Made by a program: the position numbers and the translations under genes
NCBI GenBank assembly: GCA_944472135.2
Contig: OX235263.1
Coordinates: forward strand, 29,751,379-29,815,378
DNA: 64,000 bases
Direction: 5' to 3'
Origin: Trichobilharzia regenti
Taxonomy: Eukaryota > Platyhelminthes > Trematoda > Strigeidida > Schistosomatidae
In this document: piece after piece, positions 41,243-64,000 of the stretch
Layout of the letters: each line of letters opens with the position of its first letter
Numbering within the stretch: the stretch's first letter is position 1
The notes under the pieces: generated by a model
What the model saw: only the letters and a program-made list of their open reading frames with translations
What the model was told of the DNA's origin: nothing
Databases searched by the model: none

Positions 41243-41467
41243 TGGGCTTGCATGATGTAGTCATAGTGAATGTAGATTGTTGAGGTTTGGTTTGTGGGTG
41301 AGTTGTTGAATGAAAGAGTGATTGATTGAGTGATTGAATGAGGGTGTGTGTTATCATTTGAAGTGTGAGTAATAAGAAGATGGGATGATGAATGTGAAGC
41401 GATGTGATGTGAAAATGGTGTGATTGTGTAGTGTTTGTGTTTTTGGTTGATGGTTGGTTGTATGGTG

Positions 41468-41767
41468 AAAAGAGGAGGCGGTCTCCACGCGCGGACCGGG
41501 CTGTCACATGGCCACCATTCACAGGCGCTATCCCGCTACCGCACCACGCGGGGACTTTTGCCTGCTGGGTTTCCCCCCTGGGCCGGTGCGCCCCTCCTTA
41601 GTCGACCTGGACAACCCGTCCTCCGACAGGTCATCCATATCGGCGCCGTGCTTAGCGTGGACGCCCGATCAACATGAGCAGCCATATGCCAGAACTCCCG
41701 GTCCCGCGAAATTCCGCACCCTGGCCTCCAAGTAGCTAGATTACAGGCGTACGCCACCACGCCCAGC
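41468..41767 (-). ncRNA. SRP RNA (7SL), array copy 1
   Basis: RNA scaffold of the signal recognition particle, which pauses translation and delivers secretory ribosomes to the ER. Read on the minus strand it follows animal 7SL end to end. The 5' Alu domain begins GCTGGGCGTGGTGGCG and has the UGUAAUC motif (41745-41739) bound by SRP9/14. Then come GGGAGTTCTGG, helix 6 with the SRP19 tetraloop (GUC-GGAG-GAC around 41627-41618), TAAGGAGGGG..ACCGGCCCAGG and AGCAGG..CAAAA of helix 8 (SRP54 site, ~41595-41553), and GCGCCTGTGAAT on the 3' strand. The final TTTT (41471-41468) fits a Pol III terminator. About 300 nt is the usual animal size. The 5' end is placed by alignment in mind to the human RNA and may be off by a base or two. 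Confidence 0.93.
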
Positions 41768-41790
41768 CGTCCTAAGCCATTCCACTCAAC

Positions 41791-41796
41791 TATATC
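41791..41796 (-). promoter_or_regulatory. TATA-like element upstream of SRP RNA copy 1
   Basis: On the minus strand GATATA lies at about -29 to -24 from the predicted 5' end. It stands in a conserved ~60-bp upstream block (to ~41823) shared by all array copies examined. A TATA-like box at this distance is expected for Pol III genes with an external promoter, such as 7SL. The assignment is positional, not proven. Confidence 0.45.
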
Positions 41797-43103
41797 AATC
41801 ACATCAACACTACCAGTCCACACTCATTGCACACCTCACAAACACAAACACAACACACACACACAGCCAATACATTCACCAAAACTATCAACCAACTTCA
41901 TTCAGTCACTCATTCATTCATTCATTCAGTCAGTCATTCTCTCTTTCTTTCGCTTCATCAATCAACAAGTCAACCGAATCCAGATCGACTCTCACCTGTT
42001 GCTTATCACATCGACTCATCGACTACTCTCAATTTCGACTACCACATCTCAACCGAATAATATCACACATACAACATCACTCATGTCACACCAGGAACAC
42101 CATACAATCTACTCCCACTGGCTCCACAAACAACACCATCTACACACTGAGAGAAGACGCTGAGTGTGAGGAGAGGTGAGCTGAGGTGAGACGAGATGAG
42201 AAGAGAAGAGATGACCGGATGACAAAGAGACATTGAAGAGACATGACACGCATGAGAAGCTGTCTACATTCACAAGAGTTGAATAGGTATGAAGGCTGGT
42301 TTGGCGAATCAGACTATCAGGGTGTAGTACTGTGTGAGACTTGAGGAGTATTAGTGCAGGAGAATCGACTGCACACACCTCATGTGGATTAGAGGAGAAT
42401 ATTGTCAATGTGTGCATAGCAGTGTATGTGTGCTTGACTTTGAATTTGTGGGAATGAGAGACAGGCATGGTGTGTTCCATAGTGACAGGAAGTGAGAGAT
42501 TGTGGAGTGGAGTGAGAGGCAGTTTGTCAATTAGTCAGCTTCTAGGCGTCCGTCTCTCTCTGTGTGTCTGTGTGTGTGTGCGTGTGTGCGTGTGTTTACG
42601 TGTGTGGTGATGAGGTGAGGATTTTGTGCTACCTGGTGAGTACATTTATCTGTGTGGTTTGGTTGTAGTTGTAGTTGTAGTTGTGATTCAGGATGTTGAA
42701 TCGGCGACAAATGATCTTATTCGCCATATTCATCATGATGATGATGATGATGATGATGATTTGTGTTTTGTTAATGTGATGTGGTTGTTGTGAATTGAGT
42801 GAGTAGACAATGCATTTTGATGGTGGTTTATGGATTGATGTGTAATGATGATTGTTGGTCGTTGGTGGAATGATTCGACGGGCTTGCATGATGTAGTCAT
42901 AGTGAATGTAGATTGTTGAGGTTTGGTTTGTGGGTGAGTTGTTGAATGAAAGAGTGATTGATTGAGTGATTGAATGAGGGTGTGTGTTATCATTTGAAGT
43001 GTGAGTAATAAGAAGATGGGATGATGAATGTGAAGCGATGTGATGTGAAAATGGTGTGATTGTGTAGTGTTTGTGTTTTTGGTTGATGGTTGGTTGTATG
43101 GTG

Positions 43104-43403
43104 AAAAGAGGAGGCGGTCTCCACGCGCGGACCGGGCTGTCACATGGCCACCATTCACAGGCGCTATCCCGCTACCGCACCACGCGGGGACTTTTGCCTG
43201 CTGGGTTTCCCCCCTGGGCCGGTGCGCCCCTCCTTAGTCGACCTGGACAACCCGTCCTCCGACAGGTCATCCATATCGGCGCCGTGCTTAGCGTGGACGC
43301 CCGATCAACATGAGCAGCCATATGCCAGAACTCCCGGTCCCGCGAAATTCCGCACCCTGGCCTCCAAGTAGCTAGATTACAGGCGTACGCCACCACGCCC
43401 AGC
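43104..43403 (-). ncRNA. SRP RNA (7SL), array copy 2
   Basis: Same 300-nt sequence as copy 1 as far as can be seen, including the UGUAAUC loop, GGAG tetraloop, helix-8 core and TTTT end. The TATA-like block upstream is also present. Confidence 0.93.
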
Positions 43404-44790
43404 CGTCCTAAGCCATTCCACTCAACTATATCAATCACATCAACACTACCAGTCCACACTCATTGCACACCTCACAAACACAAACACACACACACACACA
43501 CACACAAGCCAATACATTCACCAAAACTATCAACCAACTTCATTCAGTCACTCATTCATTCATTCAGTCAGTCAGTCAGTCAGTCATTCACTCATTCATT
43601 CATTCATTCATTCATTCTTTCTTTCTGTCGCTTCATCAATCAACAAGTCAACCGAATCCAGATCGACTCTCACCTGTTGCTTATCACATCGACTCATCGA
43701 CTACTCTCAATTTCGACTACCACATCTCAACCGAATAATATCATACATACAACATCACTCATGTCACACCAGGAACACCATACAATCTACTCCCACTGGC
43801 TCCACAAACAACACCATCTACACACTGAGAGAAGACGCTGAGTGTGAGGAGAGGTGAGCTGAGGTGAGACGAGATGAGAAAGAGAAGAGAAGAGAAGAGA
43901 TGACCGGATGACAAAGAGACATTGAAGAGACATGACACGCATGAGAAGCTGTCTACATTCACAAGAGTTGAATAGGTATGAAGGCTGGTTTGGCGAATCA
44001 GACTATCAGGGTGTAGTACTGTGTGAGACTTGAGGAGTATTAGTGCAGGAGAATCGACTGCACACACCTCATGTGGATTAGAGGAGAATATTGTCAATGT
44101 GTGCATAGCAGTGTATGTGTGCTTGACTTTGAATTTGTGGGAATGAGAGACAGGCATGGTGTGTTCCATAGTGACAGGAAGTGAGAGATTGTGGAGTGGA
44201 GTGAGAGGCAGTTTGTCAATTAGTCAGCTTCTAGGCGTCCGTCTCTCTCTGTGTGTCTGTGTGTGTGTGCGTGTGTGCGTGTGTTTACGTGTGTGGTGAT
44301 GAGGTGAGGATTTTGTGCTACCTGGTGAGTACATTTATCTGTGTGGTTTGGTTGTAGTTGTAGTTGTAGTTGTGATTCAGGATGTTGAATCGGCGACAAA
44401 TGATCTTATTCGCCATATTCATCATGATGATGATGATGATGATGATTTTGTGTTTTGTTAATGTGATGTGGTTGTTGTGAATTGAGTGAGTAGACAATGC
44501 ATTTTGATGGTGGTTTATGGATTGATGTGTAATGATGATTGTTGGTCGTTGGTGGAATGATTCGACGGGCTTGCATGATGTAGTCATAGTGAATGTAGAT
44601 TGTTGAGGTTTGGTTTGTGGGTGAGTTGTTGAATGAAAGAGTGATTGATTGAGTGATTGAATGAGGGTGTGTGTTATCATTTGAAGTGTGAGTAATAAGA
44701 AGATGGGATGATGAATGTGAAGCGATGTGATGTGAAAATGGTGTGATTGTGTAGTGTTTGTGTTTTTGGTTGATGGTTGGTTGTATGGTG

Positions 44791-45090
44791 AAAAGAGGAG
44801 GCGGTCTCCACGCGCGGACCGGGCTGTCACATGGCCACCATTCACAGGCGCTATCCCGCTACCGCACCACGCGGGGACTTTTGCCTGCTGGGTTTCCCCC
44901 CTGGGCCGGTGCGCCCCTCCTTAGTCGACCTGGACAACCCGTCCTCCGACAGGTCATCCATATCGGCGCCGTGCTTAGCGTGGACGCCCGATCAACATGA
45001 GCAGCCATATGCCAGAACTCCCGGTCCCGCGAAATTCCGCACCCTGGCCTCCAAGTAGCTAGATTACAGGCGTACGCCACCACGCCCAGC
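44791..45090 (-). ncRNA. SRP RNA (7SL), array copy 3
   Basis: Indistinguishable by eye from copy 1 across the gene. The adjoining (CA)n and ATTC/AGTC tracts differ in length from neighbouring units. Confidence 0.93.
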
Positions 45091-46481
45091 CGTCCTAAGC
45101 CATTCCACTCAACTATATCAATCACATCAACACTACCAGTCCACACTCATTGCACACCTCACAAACACAAACACACACACACACACACACACAAGCCAAT
45201 ACATTCACCAAAACTATCAACCAACTTCATTCAGTCACTCATTCATTCATTCATTCAGTCAGTCAGTCAGTCAGTCAGTCACTCATTCACTCATTCATTC
45301 ATTCATTCATTCATTCTTTCTTTCTTTCGCTTCATCAATCAACAAGTCAACCGAATCCAGATCGACTCTCACCTGTTGCTTATCACATCGACTCATCGAC
45401 TACTCTCAATTTCGACTACCACATCTCAACCGAATAATATCATACATACAACATCACTCATGTCACACCAGGAACACCATACAATCTACTCCCACTGGCT
45501 CCACAAACAACACCATCTACACACTGAGAGAAGACGCTGAGTGTGAGGAGAGGTGAGCTGAGGTGAGGTGAGACGAGATGAGAAGAGAAGAGATGACCGG
45601 ATGACAAAGAGACATTGAAGAGACATGACACGCATGAGAAGCTGTCTACATTCACAAGAGTTGAATAGGTATGAAGGCTGGTTTGGCGAATCAGACTATC
45701 AGGGTGTAGTACTGTGTGAGACTTGAGGAGTATTAGTGCAGGAGAATCGACTGCACACACCTCATGTGGATTAGAGGAGAATATTGTCAATGTGTGCATA
45801 GCAGTGTATGTGTGCTTGACTTTGAATTTGTGGGAATGAGAGACAGGCATGGTGTGTTCCATAGTGACAGGAAGTGAGAGATTGTGGAGTGGAGTGAGAG
45901 GCAGTTTGTCAATTAGTCAGCTTCTAGGCGTCCGTCTCTCTGTGTGTCTGTGTGTGTGTGCGTGTGTGCGTGTGTTTACGTGTGTGGTGATGAGGTGAGG
46001 ATTTTGTGCTACCTGGTGAGTACATTTATCTGTGTGGTTTGGTTGTAGTTGTAGTTGTAGTTGTGATTCAGGATGTTGAATCGGCGACAAATGATCTTAT
46101 TCGCCATATTCATCATGATGATGATGATGATGATGATGTTGTGTTTTGTTAATGTGATGTGGTTGTTGTGAATTGAGTGAGTAGACAATGCATTTTGATG
46201 GTGGTTTATGGATTGATGTGTAATGATGATTGTTGGTCGTTGGTGGAATGATTCGACGGGCTTGCATGATGTAGTCATAGTGAATGTAGATTGTTGAGGT
46301 TTGGTTTGTGGGTGAGTTGTTGAATGAAAGAGTGATTGATTGAGTGATTGAATGAGGGTGTGTGTTATCATTTGAAGTGTGAGTAATAAGAAGATGGGAT
46401 GATGAATGTGAAGCGATGTGATGTGAAAATGGTGTGATTGTGTAGTGTTTGTGTTTTTGGTTGATGGTTGGTTGTATGGTG

Positions 46482-46781
46482 AAAAGAGGAGGCGGTCTCC
46501 ACGCGCGGACCGGGCTGTCACATGGCCACCATTCACAGGCGCTATCCCGCTACCGCACCACGCGGGGACTTTTGCCTGCTGGGTTTCCCCCCTGGGCCGG
46601 TGCGCCCCTCCTTAGTCGACCTGGACAACCCGTCCTCCGACAGGTCATCCATATCGGCGCCGTGCTTAGCGTGGACGCCCGATCAACATGAGCAGCCATA
46701 TGCCAGAACTCCCGGTCCCGCGAAATTCCGCACCCTGGCCTCCAAGTAGCTAGATTACAGGCGTACGCCACCACGCCCAGC
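46482..46781 (-). ncRNA. SRP RNA (7SL), array copy 4
   Basis: Indistinguishable by eye from copy 1 across the gene. In this unit the upstream CA tract ends in CCCAGCC rather than CAAGCC, a spacer variant shared with copy 5. Confidence 0.93.
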
Positions 46782-48156: not shown

Positions 48157-48456
48157 AAAAGAGGAGGCGGTCTCCACGCGCGGACCGGGCTGTCACATGG
48201 CCACCATTCACAGGCGCTATCCCGCTACCGCACCACGCGGGGACTTTTGCCTGCTGGGTTTCCCCCCTGGGCCGGTGCGCCCCTCCTTAGTCGACCTGGA
48301 CAACCCGTCCTCCGACAGGTCATCCATATCGGCGCCGTGCTTAGCGTGGACGCCCGATCAACATGAGCAGCCATATGCCAGAACTCCCGGTCCCGCGAAA
48401 TTCCGCACCCTGGCCTCCAAGTAGCTAGATTACAGGCGTACGCCACCACGCCCAGC
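48157..48456 (-). ncRNA. SRP RNA (7SL), array copy 5
   Basis: Gene unchanged from copy 1. Its upstream flank carries private substitutions (for example CACTGATTGCACAACTC where other units have CACTCATTGCACACCTC). About 340 bp upstream the spacer is interrupted by the LTR element that starts at 48801. Confidence 0.92.
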
Positions 48457-48800
48457 CGTCCTAAGCCATTCCACTCAACTATATCAATCACATCAACACT
48501 ACCAGTCCACACTGATTGCACAACTCACAAACACAAACACACACACACACACACCCAGCCAATACATTCACCAAAACTATCAACCAACTTCATTCAATCA
48601 CTCATTCATTCAGTCAGTCAGTCAGTCAGTCACTCAATCACTCAGTCAGTCATTCATTCATTCATTCATTCTCTCTTTCTTTCGCTTCATCAGTCAACAA
48701 GTCAACCGAATCCAGATCGACTCTCACCTCTTGCTTATCACATCGACTCATCGACTACTCTCAATTTCGACTACCACATCTCAACCGAATAATATCATAC

Positions 48801-49101
48801 TGTTGTGTGCGTTTTCTGACTAAACTGCTGTACACATATATTCTATGTATTTCTTCGTTCTTATTGATGTGCGCAGACGTTGTGGCTACTCGACTCCCAC
48901 AACGTAAATCAAAAGGCACTTGTGAAGAATACGAATATGTATTGAAGCAGTAGTCAAATTCGAAATTGTGTCAAGGTAATATTCAACAGTGAATGGACAA
49001 GTATTTACGGAGTATATACAAAATCGGTCTGTATACACATATAATGCAAGTATACAAATTAGATTAAAAAGCATGTTTACGGTTGGTATAGGGGTACTAC
49101 A
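48801..49101 (-). repeat. 3' LTR of the RT-deleted element
   Basis: Partner of the LTR at 52710-53012, with the same TG...CA ends. It adjoins the ATAC target duplication on its outer side. Confidence 0.93.
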
Positions 49102-49116
49102 TAATTCCCCCACCAG
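49102..49116 (-). other. Polypurine tract of the RT-deleted element
   Basis: GGTGGGGGAATTA lies directly next to the 3' LTR on the minus strand, the expected place for plus-strand priming. The ~400 bp between it and the stop codon (49119-49517) is AT-rich and non-coding. Confidence 0.65.
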
Positions 49117-49517
49117 AACACTAAAATATAAAAAAAATACATTTAAGTGTTCGAAAATAACATGCGTCAGCGTAATACGTAGCAGCGATAGTACACAGAA
49201 GGCGATTTATTAAGCTGAAAAATGAGCGGTTTAAAGCGGTTAATAACATCGATAATAAATGCGATAATCTAGGGAAAGTGAAATTGCTAATCGTAATAGA
49301 ATATATAAGGAACGATAAAATTGTCCGGGGATCTGTAGTCGGTAGACGAAAACGATACGTGAATAATATACGAGATGTGATTAAATATAATAATATAGGA
49401 AATATCGATGTTAAAATAATAGTGACGTGATTTATGTATGAAAATATTAATCAGTTAAATGAGTAATCAAATGACAATTACGAATAAAGATAATAAAAAA
49501 TGAAAATTCATAGTAAG

Positions 49518-52289
49518 TCATATTTCGATGACTTGCACGTAACGTTTAGGCCAATGGACTCGTCTACCAGATCGTGTTGTTTTCGCAGGCTTCTCTGTCG
49601 ACGTTGAAGCTTGTGTAGATGTAGGTGTTGGCACGTCGTTCAGCTGGTTCTTATCGTTGACTTCGAAATCGTCGAGGAACGCTGGTTTGACTCTGTCGAT
49701 ACTGATGGCTTCTGTTTTATTCAATCTTTCTATCGTGATAACTTTCGCGTTTCTGTTTAGAACTTTGAATGGGCCATCGTAAGCGGGTTGAAGTGGTCGT
49801 TGTACACCTTCTCTCCTGACGAAGACGTGAGTACAATCTGTCAGTTGTGACGGGATGTATGACGCTCGTTCCTGCTGACGTGGAATTGATATCTTTAGCT
49901 CGTTCATGTGTCGTTTTAGCTGATGCACGTAACCAGTCATATCGTGTGGAACTTTGTTACCCGGGGTGAAAAATTCTCCTGGTAATCGTAATGTTGTTCC
50001 GTAGACTAGTTCGGAAACACAGCAGCCAATATCTTTCTTTATAGTAGCTCGTATACCAAGTAATACTAGTGGAAGTTTGGTTGACCAATCGTTTCGAGTC
50101 AAAGAAGCAGCGAGTGCAGCCTTGAGTTGTCGATGAAATCGTTCAACCATACCGTTGGAACTAGGATGATACGCTGTTGTTCGTATTCGTTTAATGCCTA
50201 GTAATTCCGTTAGTTGGTCAAACAGTCGGCTTTCAAACTGAGCACCTCTGTCTGTAGTGATAATTGATGGGACACCAAAGTTGGCTATCCAGTTTTCGAC
50301 TAAAGCTTTAGCTACCGTTTCAGCTGAGACGTCGATTAATGGAACTGCTACTGGCCAACGAGTAAATCTGTCAATGCAGGTTAGAATATAGTTGAAACCA
50401 TTGGAAGGAGGCAGTGGACCAACTATGTCTACATGTACGTGGTCAAATCTAGCGTCGGGGTTAGGGAAGCGACCAAGTGGTGCTTTGGTGTGCCCGTTGA
50501 TTTTGACTCTTTGACAAGACAAGCAATTTCGTGTCCACTTCTTAACGTCGCTGTTAATGTTTGGCCAGATAAATCTTTCTCTTAGTAGCTTGGTAGTAGC
50601 GCTAACACCAGGATGCGACAAGTTATGTAACTTCTCGAATACTGTATGTCTCATAGCTGTTGGAATGAAAGGTCGATATTTACCTGTAGAGGTGTCGCAG
50701 ATAACTTTTGTCGTGCCGAAAGGAATTGCCTCGAGGTTCAAAGATGTTGTTTTAGAAGACATGATCTTTTTGAGTTCGACGTCCTCTCGTTGTAAGTTTG
50801 AGAGGTGTTCATAGTCAATGTCTGGGCATACAATGTTATCAATGTGCATACGTGGCAAAGCGTCTGCTACTTCATTGTTTTTACCCTTGACTTGTCGCAG
50901 ATCGGAGTTGACTTGGGGTGTATACTCGCGGTGTCGTATTTCGCGCGGAGAGTAATTAACCTGCTTTACTGATAAGGCTTTCATTGGAGCTTTATGGTCT
51001 GTTGATTGGATAGATGGTTGTAGAATGTCAGGAAACTGATCTGCCGAGTCGGTATATGGAGGTGCTGGTTTGCGTGTGACCATCAAGTTCAGCGATGATG
51101 CACGGCTAATCGTACCAGCGATGTACCTTCTATTGAGCGAGTCTATTAGCTTAGGACTAACCGGATCAACCAGCAGTTTGTGTTGCTGTAGGAAATCTAT
51201 ACCAAGGATTGGGGATGGAACGTCTGCGATGATGAAAGACCAATCATAGGTATTCTGCAGACCAAAATCTAAAGTCATTCGTTTACTACCATATGTAACA
51301 ATATTAGACTTATTAACGGGTTGGAGCGTAACTGCAGGGTCAGGATGTTGACGTTCCTGCGTAGTCGGAGGGAGAACACCAACCTCTGCTCCTGTGTCGA
51401 CTAAGAACGTAGTACCGGTGTTTCTATCTGTTACGTAAAACAAACGACTGCTAGATCGTAGATTGCCAACAGTAGAAGTTTTCATACATGATGATATATC
51501 TTTTGGCTTAGCCTGAAAGTTGCAAGGTGAACGACACCGTCGTGCATTATCTCCGTAACTACGGTGGTACCAGCAAATAGTATCGTGATGTCGTGACGTG
51601 CTGGGTGATCGAGAAAGACGTCGACGAGACGAGCTTCTAGAACGGCTTGGTCGTGTGCGTGTGGTCAGTGCTGCTAACTGACTCAGTACGGTGTCGACTT
51701 TGTGTTCTAGCGCCTGTATCCTGTCGTCAGTGTCTGGCATTCTGCTGGTGGAAGCAACAGATTGAGGTGTTGACCTCTCATACATGCGATCTGCGATTTT
51801 GGCAAGCTTCTCAATGTCAATGTCGTCATCTCCATAAGCAAGAACTTGTTGAATGTTTGCAGGAAGTCGTCGCAACCAAATTTGGTAAAAGAGACTTTTG
51901 TCGATATCCCTTCCTGCTACTAGGCTTTGCATGTGCCTCATGAGTTGTGATGGGGTTTTATCGCCTAGCTCTACGTTGCTTAACAAACGATCGAGTGCTT
52001 GCCTATCAGAAAGTGAAGTGCATCGAAGTACTTCTTCTTTCAACTTGTCGTAAGGAGCGTCTGTGCTGGGCTGAACTATGTGTTGTCGAACCTGTTCGGC
52101 GATTTCGTCTGGTAGTACTGTACTCAATATGCCAAATTTAACCGTCTGTGACGTAAGCTTATTGGCAGTGAAATAATTTTCCAGTCGTGCAAACCAAAGA
52201 TGGGAGTCTTTGGGCCTAAAAACTGGTACAGTAAGAGAAATGGTACCAACAGATCCCAGCTGTAAGGTATCAGGGGTATCGGAAGACAT
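49518..52289 (-). CDS. Gag-protease-integrase polyprotein of the RT-deleted element
   Basis: The frame is open from 52427, but the likely start is the ATG at 52289 (MSSDTPDTL...), giving about 923 residues; the 46 residues before it look like translated leader. Order: Gag capsid-like region; arginine/serine-rich stretch; CX2HX9CX3C zinc knuckle; protease with [10 protein letters not shown]; then a jump from the protease/RT linker (FPDILQP) straight into the RNase H TDHK motif and its tail (VADALPRM). After that comes a complete integrase: H-H and CLSC zinc residues, D of HVDIVGP, D of TTDRGAQF, E of GMVERF with a D-35-E spacing, and a GPF chromodomain-like tail ending near SIDRVKPAF. The whole RT (YxDD) and most of RNase H are gone, yet no stop or shift occurs. 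Confidence 0.88.
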
Positions 52290-52560
52290 GATACAATTCG
52301 TAGAAAAATGGTTTAACAGTAACAAAATAGCAAAAACAATGCACACAAAGAATATGGCAAAACCGAAAAACATGCAATGCGGGTGCTTACCACAGATTAC
52401 TGCAAGTTGTGCAATGAGAAAGCACAAGAATGACCTCGAAATGTCTATTATATGTATATATATCCGATAAAGTTAGAGTTTAATTAATCTAGCAAGTGTA
52501 ATGCTGCGTCCGGGTGATCAAAAGGTCGTTGGACTCAACACGTGATCGTCGCAGGTGAAA

Positions 52561-52709
52561 AAGTTGTCGTTGCGATGGACAATTTGTCGTCGGGGTCGAA
52601 ATTTGTCGTTGGGGTCAACAATTCGTCATCGGGGTGAACCAGTTATCGTCAAGGATACCAATTTGTCGTCGATGTCGAAATTGGTCGTCGACGTCGGGCT
52701 CACCAATTT
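52561..52709 (-). repeat. ~20-bp degenerate tandem repeats in the element leader
   Basis: Seven or so imperfect units of the form AATTTGTCGTCGGGGTCGA (plus strand), with a period near 20 bp, run up to the LTR. Each unit on the minus strand resembles the primer-binding site (CACCCCGATGAC, CGACCCCGACGAC). Confidence 0.7.
52687..52705 (-). other. Primer-binding site, Trp-tRNA-like
   Basis: Four bases inside the 5' LTR the minus strand reads TGGTGAGCCCGACGTCG. This matches the complement of a tRNA-Trp 3' end (TGGTGACCCCGACGTG) except for the seventh base and the tail. tRNA-Trp priming is typical of the CsRn1/Boudicca clade. Confidence 0.7.
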
Positions 52710-53012
52710 TGTTGCGTGCGTTTTCTGACTAAACTGCTGTACACATATATTCTACGTATCTCTTCGTTCTTATTGATGTGCGCAGACGTTGTGGCTACTC
52801 GACACCCACAACGTAAATCAAAAGGCACTTGTGAAGAATACGAATATGTATTGAAGCAGTAGTCAAATTCGAAATTGTGTAACAAGGTAATATTCAACAG
52901 TGAATGGACAAGTATTTACGGAGTATATACAAAATCGGTCTGTATACACATATAATGCAAGTATACAAATTAGAATAAAAAGCGTGTTTACGGCTGGTAT
53001 AGGGGTACTACA
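52710..53012 (-). repeat. 5' LTR of the RT-deleted element
   Basis: Begins TGTAGTACCCC and ends CGCAACA on the minus strand. It matches the other LTR at 48801-49101 apart from about seven substitutions and a two-base indel. Confidence 0.93.
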
Positions 53013-53016
53013 ATAC

Positions 53017-53617
53017 ATACAACATCACTCATGTCACACCAGGAACACCATACAATCTACTCCCACTGGCTCCACAAACAACACCATCTACACACTGAGA
53101 GAAGACGCTGAGTGTGAGGAGAGGTGAGCTGAGGTGAGACGAGATGAGAAGAGAAGAGATGACCAGATGACAAAGAGACACTGAAGAGACATGACACGCA
53201 TGACAAGCTGTCTACATTGACAAGAGTCGAATAGGTATGAAGGGTGGTTTGTTGAATCAGACCATCAGGGTGTAGTACTGTGTGAGACTTGAGGAGTATT
53301 AGTGCAGGAGAATCGAGTGCACACACCTCATGTGGATTAGAGGAGAATATTGTCAATGTGTGCATAGCAGTGTATGTGTGCTTGACTTTGAATTTGTGGG
53401 AATGAGAGACAGGCATGGTGTGTTCCATAGTGACAGGAAGTGAGAGATTGTGGAGTGGAGTGAGAGGCAGTTTGTCAATTAGTCAGCTTCTAGGCGTCCG
53501 TCTGTGTGTGTGCGTGTGTTTACGTGTGTGGTGATGAGGTGAGGTTTTTGTGCTACCTGGTGAGTACATTTATCTGTGTGGTTTTGGTTGTAGTTGTAGT
53601 TGAAGTTGAAGTTTTAT
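53017..53617. repeat. Array spacer fragment trapped between the two LTR elements
   Basis: Continues the array unit from the ATAC duplication to the (GTAGTT)n block. It is clearly more divergent than the same segment elsewhere: about nine substitutions in the ~115 bp after position 53160, where other units agree with each other. Its GT-rich tract is also shorter. Confidence 0.85.
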
Positions 53618-53955
53618 TGTGGTGAGTGCAGGCTGCTAGCCGATTGGTTGGCACTAATCTACGTTAAGGTCTAGGTCACTAATATGGGCCGTGAGAAAAT
53701 ATGAACAAGGCTGAGTCAACAACCAATCACAGCAAAGTTAACGTGGCAAAATATGATTCGCAGATAGAGAACTCTATTTGTCAAGGAATCCCGAAACAAC
53801 CAATCAGAAGCCTGCGTTTGTCTACCTAACTTCTGATAAACAACCAATCAGATGACTGCGCTTGTCTATAATAATGTAGTTGAAATATGTATAAATACGT
53901 GTTGATTTTCATAATAAAACGATCTGTTGCTTCGCCCTTGTCTTCTGTTGTTACA
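53618..53955 (+). repeat. 5' LTR with promoter signals
   Basis: Contains three CCAAT boxes in the shared context CAACCAATCA (near 53726, 53797 and 53841), an inverted ATTGG near its start, a TATA box (GTATAAATACG, ~53889) and a polyadenylation signal AATAAAA (~53912). This is a compact CCAAT/TATA promoter followed by a poly(A) signal, as expected for U3-R. Confidence 0.9.
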
Positions 53956-53973
53956 TTTGGTGTCGCTGCCTCC
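53956..53973 (+). other. Primer-binding site of the Gypsy element
   Basis: TTTGGTGTCGCTGCCTCC follows the 5' LTR. TGGTGTCGCTGCC has the form of a complement to a tRNA 3' end (…ACCA). Which tRNA was not determined. Confidence 0.55.
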
Positions 53974-53978
53974 AGAAA

Positions 53979-54740
53979 ATGAAGATCCCGTGGCCAGCTG
54001 CGTTTGAAGAAGGAGACATAAGGAGCTTCTTACGTGACTTCGAGGCTGTTGCTGAGCTGGTGGGTGTCAAGGAGCAGGCAGCGAAGGCAGTTGTCTTGGG
54101 GACGCTGTTGAGAGGCCGAGCGAAGGCTGCATATGACAGCGTAGACAGGTCAAATGGCACAGCGTCTTGGAAGAAATTGGTTGAACGACTAGTGTCCGAG
54201 TTTGACAGCGAAACAGACAGACAGCTAGCAATGCAGCAGTTCCGGTCAATGAAGCTTGGACCTGATGGAGACCCGCTAGTGTTGGCGGTGAAACTGACTA
54301 ATCTACTTCGACGCGCGCTTCCCACTTTAGATGAAGAATCAGAAGCGCAGTTACTGTCTTCCCAATTCATCGAGAGTGTCCCAGACCACATTTCTCAGCG
54401 ATTACAACTGGTTAACGCAACGCAGCCGATGGATATTAGCGAGCTGGCGAAGGTGACCAGACAGCTGCTGAGCACAACGGTAGCCGCTATAGACCAACCA
54501 AAACCAAACGAATATGAGCAGAAAATTGAAGCATTGCAGCGGGAAGTGGCGGCGTTAAAGTTGGCTGATAGAAAAGACCGGTGTTTTGAATGCGGTAAGC
54601 CGGGACACTGGAGAAGATACTGCCCAGAAAGGCGAAAAAGAAAAAATTTCAGACGGTATAATGCTTGTTCTTTCTTTCGTATGAACCTAGATTTAGTGGG
54701 GGCTATTGAGAAAGGGCTCTGTATTCGAAGTTGCGAGTGA
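53979..54740 (+). CDS. Gag polyprotein of the Gypsy element
   Basis: 253 residues starting at an ATG six bases after the primer site (MKIPWPAAFEEGD). The body is a capsid-like helical region with the retrotransposon-gag layout (FLRDFEAVAEL..., SWKKLVERLVSEF..., ALPTLDEESEAQLL...). A coiled region EQKIEALQREVAALK (~residues 180-194) leads into a CX2CX4HX4C zinc knuckle with C202, C205, H210 and C215, followed by a basic tail. It packages the element RNA into particles. The stop at 54738-54740 lies inside the start of pol, in a different frame. Confidence 0.92.
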   Translation: MKIPWPAAFEEGDIRSFLRDFEAVAELVGVKEQAAKAVVLGTLLRGRAKAAYDSVDRSNGTASWKKLVERLVSEFDSETDRQLAMQQFRSMKLGPDGDPLVLAVKLTNLLRRALPTLDEESEAQLLSSQFIESVPDHISQRLQLVNATQPMDISELAKVTRQLLSTTVAAIDQPKPNEYEQKIEALQREVAALKLADRKDRCFECGKPGHWRRYCPERRKRKNFRRYNACSFFRMNLDLVGAIEKGLCIRSCE

Positions 54741-57700
54741 ATGATCGAGAAGTAGTATGTTTGATAGATACAGGGGCGGCCGTGTCGTTAATAGATAAGA
54801 ATTTATGTAAGAGTGTTAGCCCGTGTTCATTGACAGTACAAACAGTAGGCGGGTATGTGTTGCGTATCACGGGTAGATCGAACTGTACGGTCGTTGTTGG
54901 TGGCTGCGAGGTGACGTTTCCTTTCATTGTTGTACCCGAACTACAGCGAACGATATTAGGAGCGGATTTTCTGCGTGAGATTGGTGCCATAATCGACACG
55001 CAAGCGAACGTGGTGGTCACGAAATACGGGCATATCAACATGTATGAGACCAGCGAGATAGCAGCGATTAAGCTGCCGACGGTACACAATGTGACAGAGT
55101 TAATTAGTAAATACGATCATCTGTTCACTGGAGATGGCGACCCATACGGTTATTGCGATAAGGTGAATCATGAAATTCCGTTAAGTGATCCGAAAGTAAG
55201 GTCATTTACAACGCGAAGAGTTCCATGTCATCTGGAAGGCGAAGTGGAGCGACAAGTGCAAGAGATGTTAAAAGATGACATTATTGAGGAAGCTGATAGC
55301 CCGTACAACTCTCCAGTGCTGTTAGTAAAAAAAGCGAATGGGAAGTATAGATTCTGTGTTGATTTTCGACAGTTAAACAGTATGACAGAGTTAAGACCGT
55401 GTGCCATGCCAACAGTGGTAGAAACTTTAGATCGCCTACAAGGTGCGAATGTGTTTTCGGTTCTCGATCTTCGCTCAGGATACTGGCAGATACCGATAAA
55501 ACAAGGTGATAGAGATAAGACGGCTTTCATCGTGGGTCAGACACAATATCGATTTAAACGCATGCCGTTTGGACTAGCAGGTGCACCGTTTACGTTCAGA
55601 CGACTGATGAAGCTATTACTTAGGAACTTGAAAAACGTGGAGGTTTATGGTGATGATCTCGTCATATACAGTCAAAACGAAAACGATCACGTCAACCATG
55701 TAGAAGCCGTGCTGCGACGCATCGAAGAGTTTGGACTACGCGTCAACAAAACCAAGTCCCAGATAGCCAAAAAGAATGTTACTCTGTTGGGACATAAAGT
55801 GGGAAATGGTGAGATTAAACCACTGCCGGAGAAAATTTTGACGATTAAAACGATTCCAGCCCCGAATTCAAAGAGAAAACTGAGACAATTCTTGGGTAGA
55901 GCAGCGTTTTATAGCCGCTTCGTGAAGAACTTCAATGAGATAGCAGCCCCTCTATACAGGCTACTAGGTGAGCCAAAGTTTGTTTGGTCGGAAGAATCGC
56001 AGAGGACATTCGACAGAATTAAACAGCTGCTCGACCACCAACAAATGACGCTAAAACTACCTGTGCCAGGAAGACAGTTCACAGTGTGCACAGATGCCAG
56101 TGACTACGCTATAGGTGCGGTCCTAAGACAGGACGAGGGAATCGTTGAGTATGCCAGTAGGGTTTTGACACTCGCAGAGAGAAAGTATTCAACGATAGAG
56201 AAAGAATGTTTAGCAATGGTATGGGCAGTCGACAAATGGAGACCTTATTTACTCGGCCGGCGGTTCCACATCGAAACTGATCATAAGCCGCTACAATTTT
56301 TGAAGACAGCGAGAGACCCACGGGGGAAGTTGTCACGGTGGATGTTGCGTCTTCAGGAGTACGATTTTACGATCTCACACGTTCCTGGAAGTGAAAATGT
56401 CTTGGCAGATTTGTTATCGAGACCAGAAGATGAGTCTGAGTTGCCCGAGGTCGCTTACGGAGTGCATGCAGTAGAACAAGACCCACTAAGACTTGCACGT
56501 AGGCAGAGGTTGGACGATACGCTGAATACAGTAATACAGGTGATCACCAACGGAATAGAAGTGGATCAAACTACGGCGAGTAAGGAGCTAACCACACTAC
56601 TCAGACAGAGGGATCGACTCAGAGTGAATGCCTACGGGACTCTGACCTGGCGAGAGAACGACGGAAGCTGGCTGGCTGTCATACCTCAATCGTCGCGCCA
56701 CGACATGATAGAAGAATGTCACCAGCTAGCGCATACAGGCGTGGCCAGAACGACCGATCTCCTAAGACAAAGTATGTACTGGCCAGGTATGAGAGAAGAC
56801 GTAGCAAGATACGTACTTGGATGTCCACGGTGCCAGCTGATGAAAGGTGACCGGTGTATACGACCACCACTTCAGTCGATTCCAGTTACCGCGATAGGTG
56901 ACTTGTGGTCCGTAGATGTCATGGGTCCATTTCCTCAGACATCCAATGGTAATCAGTACCTCTTGGTGATGACGGAACACGCGACACGATGGGTAGACGC
57001 CGTAGCAATCCCAGACCAACGTGCAAGAACCGTGACAGATGCAGTAGTTAGACACATTGTTGCAGACCACGGCGTACCGAAGACAATACTGACAGACCAA
57101 GGTCCCTGTTTCGAGAGTGAAGAGTTTACTTCCCGTTTGCAACAGCTGGGCATCAAGAGGATCAGAACGACCCCATACCATCCACAAACGAATGGCCTAA
57201 CGGAGAGAAACAACCGTACACTGAAGGAGTGGCTGGCCTCGAAGGGCGGGAACTGGGAAACGGAGCTTCCACTGATTTTACTAACACATCGGGCTACCAC
57301 TCAGGAAACAACGAAGAAGTCACCCTTCCAACTGATGTATGGTAGAAAACCACGATTACCGGTACACAATGAGACCTGGCCCATGCACCAAAAGTGGAGT
57401 ACGACGAAATTAAAAGCAGAGAGGAAAGAGGCAGTCAAGAATGTAATACGGAAGCAGCGCAGTGATGTCATGAAGTCTCAGATGAAAGAAAGGACGCAGT
57501 GCATTACCTTTGCAGTCGGGGACCAAGTGAAGTGTAGAGACAGGAGATATACAGTTGGAGGCGGGCTAGGTTCACGGAAACTCCTTCCAAAGTGGGAAGG
57601 ACCATACACAATCACAAAAAGACGGGGTCAAGTATATACCATCCGAAGAGGTGATAAACAGAAACGAGTTAACGCCAGTCAGCTCCAAAGATGGGTACAG

Positions 57701-57817
57701 TGGGACAAGCCGGTCAGTAACAATCCTCAACTAGAGGATGTAGCACCCAGAAGGTCGGAACGTCTGCGCACGAAGCTATTTGACGGGGGGACGAGTGTGG
57801 TGAGAGCAGGCTGCTAG
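54710..57817 (+). CDS. Pol polyprotein of the Gypsy element (protease, RT, RNase H, integrase)
   Basis: Open in the -1 frame relative to gag from 54710 (previous stop TGA 54707-54709) to 57817. There is no ATG early on; the first usable codon often quoted is a TTG at 54731, so entry by -1 frameshifting inside 54710-54740 is more likely. Counting from 54731: protease LIDTGAAVSL (D13); RT with FCVDFRQLN, SVLDLRSGYWQ, MPFGLAGAP and YGDD at 306-309; RNase H with CTDASDYAIGAVL and TDHKPLQFL; integrase with H-H-C-C zinc residues (~660-700) and the D,D35E triad (~729, 788, 824); C-terminal GPY-like module (WEGPYTI). All catalytic residues looked for are present, so the product could be active. No canonical XXXYYYZ slippery heptamer was found in the overlap. 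Confidence 0.92.
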   Translation, partial: ERALYSKLRVNDREVVCLIDTGAAVSLIDKNLCKSVSPCSLTVQTVGGYVLRITGRSNCTVVVGGCEVTFPFIVVPELQRTILGADFLREIGAIIDTQANVVVTKYGHINMYETSEIAAIKLPTVHNVTELISKYDHLFTGDGDPYGYCDKVNHEIPLSDPKVRSFTTRRVPCHLEGEVERQVQEMLKDDIIEEADSPYNSPVLLVKKANGKYRFCVDFRQLNSMTELRPCAMPTVVETLDRLQGANVFSVLDLRSGYWQIPIKQGDRDKTAFIVGQTQYRFKRMPFGLAGAPFTFRRLMKLLLRNLKNVEVYGDDLVIYSQNENDHVNHVEAVLRRIEEFGLRVNKTKSQIAKKNVTLLGHKVGNGEIKPLPEKILTIKTIPAPNSKRKLRQFLGRAAFYSRFVKNFNEIAAPLYRLLGEPKFVWSEESQRTFDRIKQLLDHQQMTLKLPVPGRQFTVCTDASDYAIGAVLRQDEGIVEYASRVLTLAERKYSTIEKECLAMVWAVDKWRPYLLGRRFHIETDHKPLQFLKTARDPRGKLSRWMLRLQEYDFTISHVPGSENVLADLLSRPEDESELPEVAYGVHAVEQDPLRLARRQRLDDTLNTVIQVITNGIEVDQTTASKELTTLLRQRDRLRVNAYGTLTWRENDGSWLAVIPQSSRHDMIEECHQLAHTGVARTTDLLRQSMYWPGMREDVARYVLGCPRCQLMKGDRCIRPPLQSIPVTAIGDLWSVDVMGPFPQTSNGNQYLLVMTEHATRWVDAVAIPDQRARTVTDAVVRHIVADHGVPKTILTDQGPCFESEEFTSRLQQLGIKRIRTTPYHPQTNGLTERNNRTLKEWLASKGGNWETELPLILLTHRATTQETTKKSPFQLMYGRKPRLPVHNETWPMHQKWSTTKLKAERKEAVKNVIRKQRSDVMKSQMKERTQCITFAVGDQVKCRDRRYTVGGGLGSRKLLPKWEGPYTITKRRGQVYTIRRGDKQKRVNASQLQRWVQWDKPVSNNPQLEDVAPRRSERLRTKLFDGGTSVVRAGC

Positions 57818-58133
57818 CCGATTGGTTGGCACTAATCTACGTTAAGGTCTAGGTCACTAATATGGGCCGTGAGAAAATATGAACAAGGCTGAGTCAACAA
57901 CCAATCACAGCAAAGTTAACGTGGCAAAATATGATTCGCAGATAGAGAACTCTATTTGTCAAGGAATCCCGAAACAACCAATCAGAAGCCTGCGTTTGTC
58001 TACCTAACTTCTGATAAACAACCAATCAGATGACTGCGCTTGTCTATAATAATGTAGTTGAAATATGTATAAATACGTGTTGATTTTCATAATAAAACGA
58101 TCTGTTGCTTCGCCCTTGTCTTCTGTTGTTACA
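57796..58133 (+). repeat. 3' LTR of the Gypsy element
   Basis: Near-identical partner of 53618-53955. The coding frame of pol runs into it and stops at 57817. A G-rich polypurine tract (GACGGGGGGACGAG, 57782-57795) precedes it directly. Confidence 0.92.
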
Positions 58134-58585
58134 GTAGCAGTAGTTGTAGTTGTAGTTGTAGTTGTGATTCAGGATGTTGAATCGGCGACAAATGATCTTA
58201 TTCGCCATATTCATCATCATGATGATGATGATGATGATGATGTTGTGTTTTGTTAATGTGATGTGGTTGTTGTGAATTGAGTGAGTAGACAATGCATTTT
58301 GATGGTGGTTTATGGATTGATGTGTAATGATGATTGTTGGTCGTTGGTGGAATGATTCGACGGGCTTGCATGATGTAGTCATAGTGAATGTAGATTGTTG
58401 AGGTTTGGTTTGTGGGTGAGTTGTTGAATGAAAGAGTGATTGATTGAGTGATTGAATGAGGGTGTGTGTTATCATTTGAAGTGTGAGTAATAAGAAGATG
58501 GGATGATGAATGTGAAGCGATGTGATGTGAAAATGGTGTGATTGTGTAGTGTTTGTGTTTTTGGTTGATGGTTGGTTGTATGGTG
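58134..58585. repeat. Array spacer between the Gypsy 3' LTR and SRP copy 6
   Basis: Resumes the unit inside the (GTAGTT)n block, with GTAGCAGTAG replacing the usual start, and runs through the (GAT)n tract into the TGAG-rich stretch. Confidence 0.85.
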
Positions 58586-58885
58586 AAAAGAGGAGGCGGT
58601 CTCCACGCGCGGACCGGGCTGTCACATGGCCACCATTCACAGGCGCTATCCCGCTACCGCACCACGCGGGGACTTTTGCCTGCTGGGTTTCCCCCCTGGG
58701 CCGGTGCGCCCCTCCTTAGTCGACCTGGACAACCCGTCCTCCGACAGGTCATCCATATCGGCGCCGTGCTTAGCGTGGACGCCCGATCAACATGAGCAGC
58801 CATATGCCAGAACTCCCGGTCCCGCGAAATTCCGCACCCTGGCCTCCAAGTAGCTAGATTACAGGCGTACGCCACCACGCCCAGC
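58586..58885 (-). ncRNA. SRP RNA (7SL), array copy 6
   Basis: Gene unchanged from copy 1. This is the first copy to the right of the two LTR insertions; the 3' LTR of the Gypsy element ends 453 bp before it. Confidence 0.93.
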
Positions 58886-60295
58886 CGTCCTAAGCCATTC
58901 CACTCAACTATATCAATCACATCAACACTACCAGTCCACACTCATTGCACACCTCACAAACACAAACACACACACACACACACAGCCAATACATTCACCA
59001 AAACTATCAACCAACTTCATTCAGTCACTCATTCATTCATTCAGTCAGTCAGTCAGTCACTCAGTCACTCAGTCATTCACTCATTCATTCATTCATTCAT
59101 TCATTCATTCATTCATTCTTTCTTTCTGTCGCTTCATCAATCAACAAGTCAACCGAATCCAGATCGACTCTCACCTGTTGCTTATCACATCGACTCATCG
59201 ACTACTCTCAATTTCGACTACCACATCTCAACCGAATAATATCATACATACAACATCACTCATGTCACACCAGGAACACCATACAATCTACTCCCACTGG
59301 CTCCACAAACAACACCATCTACACACTGAGAGAAGACGCTGAGTGTGAGGAGAGGTGAGCTGAGGTGAGACGAGATGAGGAGAAGAGAAGAGAAGAGAAG
59401 AGATGACCGGATGACAAAGAGACATTGAAGAGACATGACACGCATGAGAAGCTGTCTACATTCACAAGAGTTGAATAGGTATGAAGGCTGGTTTGGCGAA
59501 TCAGACTATCAGGGTGTAGTACTGTGTGAGACTTGAGGAGTATTAGTGCAGGAGAATCGACTGCACACACCTCATGTGGATTAGAGGAGAATATTGTCAA
59601 TGTGTGCATAGCAGTGTATGTGTGCTTGACTTTGAATTTGTGGGAATGAGAGACAGGCATGGTGTGTTCCATAGTGACAGGAAGTGAGAGATTGTGGAGT
59701 GGAGTGAGAGGCAGTTTGTCAATTAGTCAGCTTCTAGGCGTCCGTCTCTCTCTGTGTGTCTGTGTGTGTGTGCGTGTGTGCGTGTGTTTACGTGTGTGGT
59801 GATGAGGTGAGGATTTTGTGCTACCTGGTGAGTACATTTATCTGTGTGGTTTGGTTGTAGTTGTAGTTGTAGTTGTGATTCAGGATGTTGAATCGGCGAC
59901 AAATGATCTTATTCGCCATATTCATCATGATGATGATGATGATGATGATGATTTGTGTTTTGTTAATGTGATGTGGTTGTTGTGAATTGAGTGAGTAGAC
60001 AATGCATTTTGATGGTGGTTTATGGATTGATGTGTAATGATGATTGTTGGTCGTTGGTGGAATGATTCGACGGGCTTGCATGATGTAGTCATAGTGAATG
60101 TAGATTGTTGAGGTTTGGTTTGTGGGTGAGTTGTTGAATGAAAGAGTGATTGATTGAGTGATTGAATGAGGGTGTGTGTTATCATTTGAAGTGTGAGTAA
60201 TAAGAAGATGGGATGATGAATGTGAAGCGATGTGATGTGAAAATGGTGTGATTGTGTAGTGTTTGTGTTTTTGGTTGATGGTTGGTTGTATGGTG

Positions 60296-60595
60296 AAAAG
60301 AGGAGGCGGTCTCCACGCGCGGACCGGGCTGTCACATGGCCACCATTCACAGGCGCTATCCCGCTACCGCACCACGCGGGGACTTTTGCCTGCTGGGTTT
60401 CCCCCCTGGGCCGGTGCGCCCCTCCTTAGTCGACCTGGACAACCCGTCCTCCGACAGGTCATCCATATCGGCGCCGTGCTTAGCGTGGACGCCCGATCAA
60501 CATGAGCAGCCATATGCCAGAACTCCCGGTCCCGCGAAATTCCGCACCCTGGCCTCCAAGTAGCTAGATTACAGGCGTACGCCACCACGCCCAGC
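60296..60595 (-). ncRNA. SRP RNA (7SL), array copy 7
   Basis: Gene unchanged from copy 1. The flanking CA and ATTC tracts are among the longest in the array. Confidence 0.93.
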
Positions 60596-62000
60596 CGTCC
60601 TAAGCCATTCCACTCAACTATATCAATCACATCAACACTACCAGTCCACACTCATTGCACACCTCACAAACACAAACACACACACACACACACACACCAG
60701 CCAATACATTCACCAAAACTATCAACCAACTTCATTCAGTCACTCATTCATTCATTCAGTCAGTCAGTCAGTCACTCAGTCACTCAGTCATTCACTCATT
60801 CATTCATTCATTCATTCATTCATTCATTCATTCTTTCTTTCTGTCGCTTCATCAATCAACAAGTCAACCGAATCCAGATCGACTCTCACCTGTTGCTTAT
60901 CACATCGACTCATCGACTACTCTCAATTTCGACTACCACATCTCAACCGAATAATATCACACATACAACATCACTCATGTCACACCAGGAACACCATACA
61001 ATCTACTCCCACTGGCTCCACAAACAACACCATCTACACACTGAGAGAAGACGCTGAGTGTGAGGAGAGGTGAGCTGAGGTGAGGTGAGACGAGAAGAGA
61101 AGAGAAGAGATGACCGGATGACAAAGAGACATTGAAGAGACATGACACGCATGAGAAGCTGTCTACATTCACAAGAGTTGAATAGGTATGAAGGCTGGTT
61201 TGGCGAATCAGACTATCAGGGTGTAGTACTGTGTGAGACTTGAGGAGTATTAGTGCAGGAGAATCGACTGCACACACCTCATGTGGATTAGAGGAGAATA
61301 TTGTCAATGTGTGCATAGCAGTGTATGTGTGCTTGACTTTGAATTTGTGGGAATGAGAGACAGGCATGGTGTGTTCCATAGTGACAGGAAGTGAGAGATT
61401 GTGGAGTGGAGTGAGAGGCAGTTTGTCAATTAGTCAGCTTCTAGGCGTCCGTCTCTCTCTGTGTGTCTGTGTGTGTGTGCGTGTGTGCGTGTGTTTACGT
61501 GTGTGGTGATGAGGTGAGGATTTTGTGCTACCTGGTGAGTACATTTATCTGTGTGGTTTGGTTGTAGTTGTAGTTGTAGTTGTGATTCAGGATGTTGAAT
61601 CGGCGACAAATGATCTTATTCGCCATATTCATCATGATGATGATGATGATGATGATTTTGTGTTTTGTTAATGTGATGTGGTTGTTGTGAATTGAGTGAG
61701 TAGACAATGCATTTTGATGGTGGTTTATGGATTGATGTGTAATGATGATTGTTGGTCGTTGGTGGAATGATTCGACGGGCTTGCATGATGTAGTCATAGT
61801 GAATGTAGATTGTTGAGGTTTGGTTTGTGGGTGAGTTGTTGAATGAAAGAGTGATTGATTGAGTGATTGAATGAGGGTGTGTGTTATCATTTGAAGTGTG
61901 AGTAATAAGAAGATGGGATGATGAATGTGAAGCGATGTGATGTGAAAATGGTGTGATTGTGTAGTGTTTGTGTTTTTGGTTGATGGTTGGTTGTATGGTG

Positions 62001-62300
62001 AAAAGAGGAGGCGGTCTCCACGCGCGGACCGGGCTGTCACATGGCCACCATTCACAGGCGCTATCCCGCTACCGCACCACGCGGGGACTTTTGCCTGCTG
62101 GGTTTCCCCCCTGGGCCGGTGCGCCCCTCCTTAGTCGACCTGGACAACCCGTCCTCCGACAGGTCATCCATATCGGCGCCGTGCTTAGCGTGGACGCCCG
62201 ATCAACATGAGCAGCCATATGCCAGAACTCCCGGTCCCGCGAAATTCCGCACCCTGGCCTCCAAGTAGCTAGATTACAGGCGTACGCCACCACGCCCAGC
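62001..62300 (-). ncRNA. SRP RNA (7SL), array copy 8
   Basis: Gene unchanged from copy 1, with the same terminal T run and upstream TATA-like block. Confidence 0.93.
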
Positions 62301-63702
62301 CGTCCTAAGCCATTCCACTCAACTATATCAATCACATCAACACTACCAGTCCACACTCATTGCACACCTCACAAACACAAACACACACACACACACACAC
62401 AGCCAATACATTCACCAAAACTATCAACCAACTTCATTCAGTCACTCACTCATTCATTCATTCATTCAGTCAGTCAGTCAGTCACTCAGTCATTCACTCA
62501 TTCATTCATTCATTCATTCATTCATTCATTCATTCTTTCTTTCTGTCGCTTCATCAATCAACAAGTCAACCGAATCCAGATCGACTCTCACCTGTTGCTT
62601 ATCACATCGACTCATCGACTACTCTCAATTTCGACTACCACATCTCAACCGAATAATATCATACATACAACATCACTCATGTCACACCAGGAACACCATA
62701 CAATCTACTCCCACTGGCTCCACAAACAACACCATCTACACACTGAGAGAAGACGCTGAGTGTGAGGAGAGGTGAGCTGAGGTGAGACGAGATGAGAGAG
62801 AAGAGAAGAGATGACCGGATGACAAAGAGACATTGAAGAGACATGACACGCATGAGAAGCTGTCTACATTCACAAGAGTTGAATAGGTATGAAGGCTGGT
62901 TTGGCGAATCAGACTATCAGGGTGTAGTACTGTGTGAGACTTGAGGAGTATTAGTGCAGGAGAATCGACTGCACACACCTCATGTGGATTAGAGGAGAAT
63001 ATTGTCAATGTGTGCATAGCAGTGTATGTGTGCTTGACTTTGAATTTGTGGGAATGAGAGACAGGCATGGTGTGTTCCATAGTGACAGGAAGTGAGAGAT
63101 TGTGGAGTGGAGTGAGAGGCAGTTTGTCAATTAGTCAGCTTCTAGGCGTCCGTCTCTCTCTGTGTGTCTGTGTGTGTGTGCGTGTGTGCGTGTGTTTACG
63201 TGTGTGGTGATGAGGTGAGGATTTTGTGCTACCTGGTGAGTACATTTATCTGTGTGGTTTGGTTGTAGTTGTAGTTGTAGTTGTGATTCAGGATGTTGAA
63301 TCGGCGACAAATGATCTTATTCGCCATATTCATCATCATGATGATGATGATGATGATGATTGTGTTTTGTTAATGTGATGTGGTTGTTGTGAATTGAGTG
63401 AGTAGACAATGCATTTTGATGGTGGTTTATGGATTGATGTGTAATGATGATTGTTGGTCGTTGGTGGAATGATTCGACGGGCTTGCATGATGTAGTCATA
63501 GTGAATGTAGATTGTTGAGGTTTGGTTTGTGGGTGAGTTGTTGAATGAAAGAGTGATTGATTGAGTGATTGAATGAGGGTGTGTGTTATCATTTGAAGTG
63601 TGAGTAATAAGAAGATGGGATGATGAATGTGAAGCGATGTGATGTGAAAATGGTGTGATTGTGTAGTGTTTGTGTTTTTGGTTGATGGTTGGTTGTATGG
63701 TG

Positions 63703-64000
63703 AAAAGAGGAGGCGGTCTCCACGCGCGGACCGGGCTGTCACATGGCCACCATTCACAGGCGCTATCCCGCTACCGCACCACGCGGGGACTTTTGCCTGC
63801 TGGGTTTCCCCCCTGGGCCGGTGCGCCCCTCCTTAGTCGACCTGGACAACCCGTCCTCCGACAGGTCATCCATATCGGCGCCGTGCTTAGCGTGGACGCC
63901 CGATCAACATGAGCAGCCATATGCCAGAACTCCCGGTCCCGCGAAATTCCGCACCCTGGCCTCCAAGTAGCTAGATTACAGGCGTACGCCACCACGCCCA
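63703..64000 (-). ncRNA. SRP RNA (7SL), array copy 9, cut by the window end
   Basis: All of the gene is present except its first two or so bases, which lie past position 64000 because the gene is on the minus strand. The array therefore continues to the right. Confidence 0.92.

Follow-up and report, generated by a model that had tools for sequence, protein, structure and literature searches.

What does the cluster of 7SL RNA matches at the end of this Trichobilharzia regenti sequence represent, and why are its copies so alike? The stretch analysed, called the window here, comprises 64,000 nucleotides and corresponds to C2:29751379-29815378 in the assembly. The COX1 protein encoded on contig C548 of this assembly, translated by the flatworm mitochondrial code, matched a cluster named Trichobilharzia szidati with 97% identity across 96% of the protein, ahead of Schistosoma japonicum with 82%; this single mitochondrial protein points to a bird schistosome. 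Contigs C1-C8 together make up about 911 of 954 Mb, in keeping with eight chromosome pairs as in schistosomes. The 7SL RNA belongs to the signal recognition particle (SRP). In most animals 7SL genes are few and dispersed, and two or three functional ones are present in human and fly. The first-pass annotation of the window had described nine 7SL copies, standing head to tail in the same orientation, and had proposed concerted evolution or a high demand for secretory targeting; the latter is a hypothesis. This finding is real, and the RNA was correctly named as 7SL. From the sequence comparisons reported below, the locus very probably holds an essential RNA gene of the ordinary type, whose tandem and homogenised arrangement is unusual.

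The 7SL array

The window was searched with Rfam cmscan, where the family Metazoa_SRP (RF00017) has a gathering score of 70 bits. Nine matches above this cut-off were found on the minus strand between 41471 and 64000, so that number, orientation and order agreed with the annotation. The Infernal check suggested there was thereby carried out, and the cut-off was clearly exceeded: eight copies scored 243.5 bits (E 8.6e-66) over model positions 1-299, which is the full model. The ninth (A9) reached 232.7 bits, as the window end clips 2 nt of it; its whole gene in the genome was 100% identical to the other array genes. The alignments retain the motif UGUAA, GGAG as tetraloop in helix 6 and the core of helix 8. 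In three of them CCUGUAAUC, GGAG and CCAGG..GGAAAC..AGCAGG are visible, and the elements required of an SRP RNA are thus present. We take these motifs to be the Alu-domain UGUAA, the GNAR tetraloop in helix 6, and, in helix 8, the asymmetric loop and the GGAA loop.

A search of the genome (954 Mb in 548 contigs) revealed a tenth gene past the window end (C2:29816768-29817064), where this array, named array A, stops. The array leaves the window as had been stated, by merely one gene, and with ten genes the comparison to rDNA was overstated. All ten genes were the same across 297 nt. Start-to-start spacings in the window were 1636, 1687, 1691, 1675, 10429, 1710, 1705 and 1702 bp. The described unit of 1.7 kb was therefore found in the eight intact spacings of array A (1636-1710 bp). 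The sole exception, which the annotation did not contain, is the interval of 10429 bp with two long terminal repeat (LTR) retrotransposons. Pairwise comparison of the eight intact units (28 pairs) gave 4-15 substitutions per 1632-1701 aligned sites, a difference below 1%.

Signals for transcription by RNA polymerase III (Pol III) are predicted at every gene. TATA was located at -27..-24 before 10/10 genes of array A and 14/14 genes of a second array (array B, see below). All 24 full genes of both arrays end with TCTTTTCACC at the 3' side, and TTTT does not occur inside the 7SL gene. The first T of the predicted terminator run is the final base of the model match in gene A2, and every array gene is alike in this respect. 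Since each unit has its own predicted start and stop signals, all copies would supply SRP RNA.

No other Rfam family exceeded its cut-off in the gene-plus-spacer stretch 43107-44793. Sub-threshold matches to mir-1268 and SCARNA7 were obtained and rejected as signs of an additional RNA gene within the unit; the mir-1268 match sits on the 7SL gene. Antisense open reading frames (ORFs) of 175 aa are present in array units; a protein-coding array was considered and dropped.

Probable homogenisation of the units

The 10429-bp interval contains one unit broken by the two LTR elements (Table 1). The left piece of the unit adjoins the older element, the middle piece lies between both elements, and the right piece touches the younger one only. 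The two LTRs of the older element differ by 7 mismatches in 303 columns (2.3%), which is close to the drift of the middle piece from the intact units (2.5%). Because of this agreement, the spacer beside the older insertion appears to have lost homogenisation at about the time of insertion. The drift fits concerted evolution of the intact units. Thus, the proposed mode is supported by the ten identical genes, the near-identical intact units and the drift of the broken unit, and the array copies are likely kept alike by recombination between copies.

Both elements were also examined for protein domains. In the older one, the ORF 49518-52427 showed DUF7041 and integrase domains. The domain search gave no reverse-transcriptase match in this ORF, so the element may be internally deleted. 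The younger element contains zinc knuckle, protease, reverse transcriptase, RNase H and integrase domains, with a gag match slightly below its cut-off; judging from the domain order, it seems to be of the gypsy type.

Dispersed 7SL copies provide a second view on the history of the array. Eighteen copies, 16 and 2 of them from two genome searches, were located and all were inspected. In the first of these searches 40 of 157 first-look candidates were scored (24 array genes and 16 dispersed copies), and more copies may exist; in a further search, 26 of 8479 candidates were scored. Position 87 of 7SL is C in all array genes. G87 was found in 0/9 of the least and 6/9 of the most diverged dispersed copies (Fisher p = 0.009), a split that was chosen after viewing the table and without an outgroup, and in which G87 itself adds one difference to the divergence. 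As the copies with G87 cover three of the four kinds of repeat to which dispersed copies are joined (see below), the pattern would fit a change of the source sequence that affected every gene jointly. Against this reading, the copies L043 and L054 share changes at 133 and 158 and may form a small amplifying subset.

An alternative history is the recent head-to-tail amplification of one 7SL unit without continuing homogenisation, the copies being alike because they are young. The difference of less than 1% between intact units is compatible with it, and one broken unit alone cannot separate the two histories. However, the older LTR element (7/303) sat in a unit that matches its neighbours apart from the drift of 2.5%. 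The broken unit can therefore not be younger than this insertion, but over the stretch concerned the difference among intact units is a mere 0.42%. The distribution of G87, while all array genes have C, also argues against a purely recent origin. We consider recent amplification improbable.

The second array lies on the same chromosome (C2:49439776-49472637, L033-L038). It comprises 14 complete 7SL genes and a further one truncated at 136 nt, in units of mostly about 1.51 kb. All 14 genes carry G at nt 18 versus A in array A, and in nine of them this is the sole difference. The remaining five showed two to four more differences, except for gene B3 with one more. Between the consensus sequences of both arrays, 296 of 297 gene positions and 37 of 39 positions upstream (-39..-1) were identical, and for the remaining spacer 922/1096 (84.1%). 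Spacers are thus closer within array A (less than 1% difference) than between the arrays.

Inside array B, a stretch of 9702 bp is 99.5% identical to the outer flank of the array, and one of 2242 bp shares 99.9% identity with the opposite flank. A run of 93 N lies near the join of the 9702-bp duplicate. These flank duplications and the N run suggest that the public assembly is falsely duplicated here. Given such duplicated flanks about an assembly gap, array B may represent two haplotypes laid end to end, and 14 genes may be too many. The same features could indicate that haplotypes or misjoined reads produced false copies in general. For array A this is very unlikely: no N occurs in the window and the next 20 kb, and its flanks showed no duplication over the 41 kb on the left and about 17 kb on the right that were compared. 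Its units have distinct substitutions and lengths, and the LTR insertions are confined to one of them.

Several points weigh against a homogenised array of ordinary genes. There is only one broken unit, and the value for its left piece is no more than twice that among the intact units. Selection by itself could hold the genes identical, so that recombination or recent amplification is argued by spacer homogeneity alone, and a recent duplication burst would likewise yield similar units. The gene count of array B is doubtful. Among the dispersed copies, 11/18 are without a clear target-site duplication.

Dispersed 7SL copies joined to SINE-like repeats

The most unexpected addition to the finding was the structure of the dispersed copies. 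In 18/18 the 3' end of 7SL continues into a repeat resembling a short interspersed element (SINE), as determined by motif scan and by eye. The identity of this partner as a SINE is predicted. Kind 1 was found in 9/18 copies and consists of a tRNA-like head and a core, which resembles what we take to be the Nin-DC domain. Two copies of this kind carry an extra stretch between 7SL and SINE. It is a tRNA in L042 (46.1 bits); in L045 it spans about 107 nt (L045 4228-4337), matched zero Rfam families at E <= 1 and is possibly another small RNA. Kind 2 combines the tRNA-like head of kind 1 with a different body (6/18 copies, L054 being assigned by eye only). Kind 3 is a body without that head (2/18; L048 and L050), and kind 4 is another tRNA-like repeat (1/18; L056). 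Each of the four kinds was also seen free of 7SL within the stretches examined, the headless body once.

A start at 7SL nt 1-9 was observed in 17/18 dispersed copies, eight of these at nt 1, and 13/18 have at least one further T past the aligned 3' end. As 17/18 copies set in no more than 9 nt from where the RNA is predicted to start, they would argue for a transcript bounded as predicted, of the size and strand expected in the annotation. A target-site duplication around the joined unit was clear in 6/18 copies (L040, L042, L046, L047, L048 and L051), where clear means that at most 2 of 100 shuffles, or none of 200, were equally good. L041 was borderline with 8 of 100 and 4 of 200 shuffles. 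No change is common to most of the 18 copies with their four partner kinds; the largest group sharing one comprises 6/18. L043 and L054, with the same partner kind, have two non-CpG changes in common, namely those at 133 and 158 mentioned above. The headless-partner pair L048 and L050 differ in their C82/G87 states.

The dispersed fusions likely arose by joining of two RNAs during reverse transcription. The reverse transcriptase of a long interspersed element (LINE) likely starts at the SINE 3' end and reaches the SINE 5' end. It would then run on to 7SL RNA, or it would copy a ligated 7SL-SINE RNA. Both template switching and RNA ligation are discussed for LINE-1 chimeras, with 7SL among the partners (PMC13174262). 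As all 18 dispersed copies examined are fused, it appears that 7SL is not taken up alone by the local LINE machinery, which would require a SINE 3' end.

The existence of such copies, together with the changes common to L043 and L054, could also be taken to mean that the array repeats themselves are a mobile element derived from 7SL, comparable to Alu. This is scarcely conceivable and was rejected, since the array copies are identical, have no SINE part, share long common flanks and retain 7SL in all its parts, the S domain among them, while the dispersed copies are without the array flank (not seen by eye within 70 nt upstream in ten copies and 30 nt upstream in 18) and the pair L048/L050 is without common C82/G87 states.

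The junctions of L048 and L050 deserve separate mention. In both, the partner starts at AACCTCGCC, and the alignment with twister-P1 (RF03160) places this start on the A side of the U|A step, which we take to be the cleavage point. The scores of 49.1 and 48.9 bits (E about 1e-8) lie below the cut-off of 67.2. In L048 the aligned 7SL part extends to nt 297, after which TT stands; in L050 it extends to nt 284, after which A's stand. With different 7SL ends, these two cases are suggestive of apparently separate joins that would have used the same RNA end. A stand-alone twister SINE start was sought in L041, where one copy was found, without the AACCTCGCC start. A wider hypothesis can be formulated, which we regard as possible and rather doubtful: in this fluke, SRP RNA would enter the genome only in fusion with a SINE RNA, at the latter's 5' end, and some of these ends would be produced by the self-cleaving twister ribozyme of the SINE. 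Ribozyme-cut SINE RNAs would then be joining points that build composite retroelements from an essential cellular RNA, and each fossil would capture, and so date, successive homogenised versions of the array.

Two further observations concern the surroundings of these repeats. Relatives of the partner in L056 were found in the window at 20247-20348 and 24684-24787. The first overlaps a hammerhead match above the cut-off (20321-20366), the second a match that stays below it (24760-24809). In L056 itself, no hammerhead was detected by Rfam at E <= 1. Type I hammerheads above the Rfam cut-off occur in the window at 11401-11445 (-), 13932-13977 (-), 20321-20366 (+) and 36170-36214 (+), and hammerhead SINEs are known from schistosomes. 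In L041, a piece of 18S rRNA (1807-2309; 232 bits, model 4-605) lies about 1.4 kb from the 7SL retrocopy.

Table 1 Positions of the array genes, the broken unit and associated features (window coordinates unless a locus is given)
Feature	Position	Strand	Remark
7SL/SRP RNA gene A1	41471..41767	-	RF00017, 243.5 bits
7SL/SRP RNA gene A2	43107..43403	-	RF00017, 243.5 bits
Predicted Pol III terminator, TTTT run, 3' end of gene A2	43104..43107	-	likewise at all array genes
One repeat unit, gene A3 plus 1390 nt spacer	43404..45090	-	unit comparison
7SL/SRP RNA gene A3	44794..45090	-	RF00017, 243.5 bits
7SL/SRP RNA gene A4	46485..46781	-	RF00017, 243.5 bits
7SL/SRP RNA gene A5	48160..48456	-	RF00017, 243.5 bits
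Predicted Pol III upstream element, TATA, -27..-24 of gene A5	48480..48483	-	same position at every array gene
Left piece of broken unit	48457..48800	.	4.2% from intact units vs 2.2% among intact; microsatellites
Older LTR element	48801..53012	-	LTRs 48801-49101 and 52710-53012, 97.0% alike
Middle piece of broken unit	53013..53608	.	2.5% from intact units vs 0.42% among intact
Younger LTR element	53618..58133	+	LTRs 53618-53955 and 57796-58133, 1 mismatch in 338
Right piece of broken unit	58143..58588	.	0.28% from intact units vs 0.21% among intact
7SL/SRP RNA gene A6	58589..58885	-	RF00017, 243.5 bits
7SL/SRP RNA gene A7	60299..60595	-	RF00017, 243.5 bits
7SL/SRP RNA gene A8	62004..62300	-	RF00017, 243.5 bits
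7SL/SRP RNA gene A9, minus 2 nt at window end	63706..64000	-	RF00017, 232.7 bits
Twister-P1-like sequence in SINE body	L048 4200-4274; L050 225-313		below Rfam cut-off

Relation to known systems

The genes agree with metazoan SRP RNA (RF00017) in the full 299-position match, the Alu domain, the GGAG tetraloop, the helix-8 core and the 3' T-run. They differ from it in their arrangement, with ten identical genes in tandem and a second array. For the draft genome of Schistosoma mansoni, eight SRP RNA candidates, one of them almost canonical, are reported (PMC2770079). A tandem 7SL array in an animal was not found among the papers listed in the literature searches, judged by titles and the beginnings of abstracts and with subscription journals outside the search.

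Tandem, concertedly evolving small-RNA genes are already known, and the 7SL gene here is another RNA in such an arrangement. Clusters of this kind are described for spliced leader (SL) RNA in several cestodes and trematodes including S. mansoni (PMC12582326). The flatworm SL-RNA clusters share with array A the head-to-tail order of small-RNA genes under concerted evolution. In contrast, they concern another RNA with another function, and the unit found here has 1.7 kb with a spacer of about 1.4 kb.

The dispersed copies resemble the chimeric retrocopies of LINE-1 with U6, 5S, tRNA or 7SL, in which the small RNA is placed 5', in sense, by one insertion event (PMC13174262). Different from these, the copies here are from a flatworm, their 3' partner is a SINE-like repeat of four kinds, and 18/18 of the copies examined are chimeric. 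With the SINEs derived from 7SL (Alu/B1 kind, SINE1) they have in common that 7SL forms the 5' end of the retroposed unit. The 18 copies examined appear to be distinguished by a full-length 7SL including the S domain, by varied partners and by the lack of marks common to most of them, with L043 and L054 as a possible small amplifying subset.

SRP RNA is essential. The broken unit with its LTR elements as clocks, the sister array and the graded fossil copies would make the speed at which its genes are homogenised measurable.

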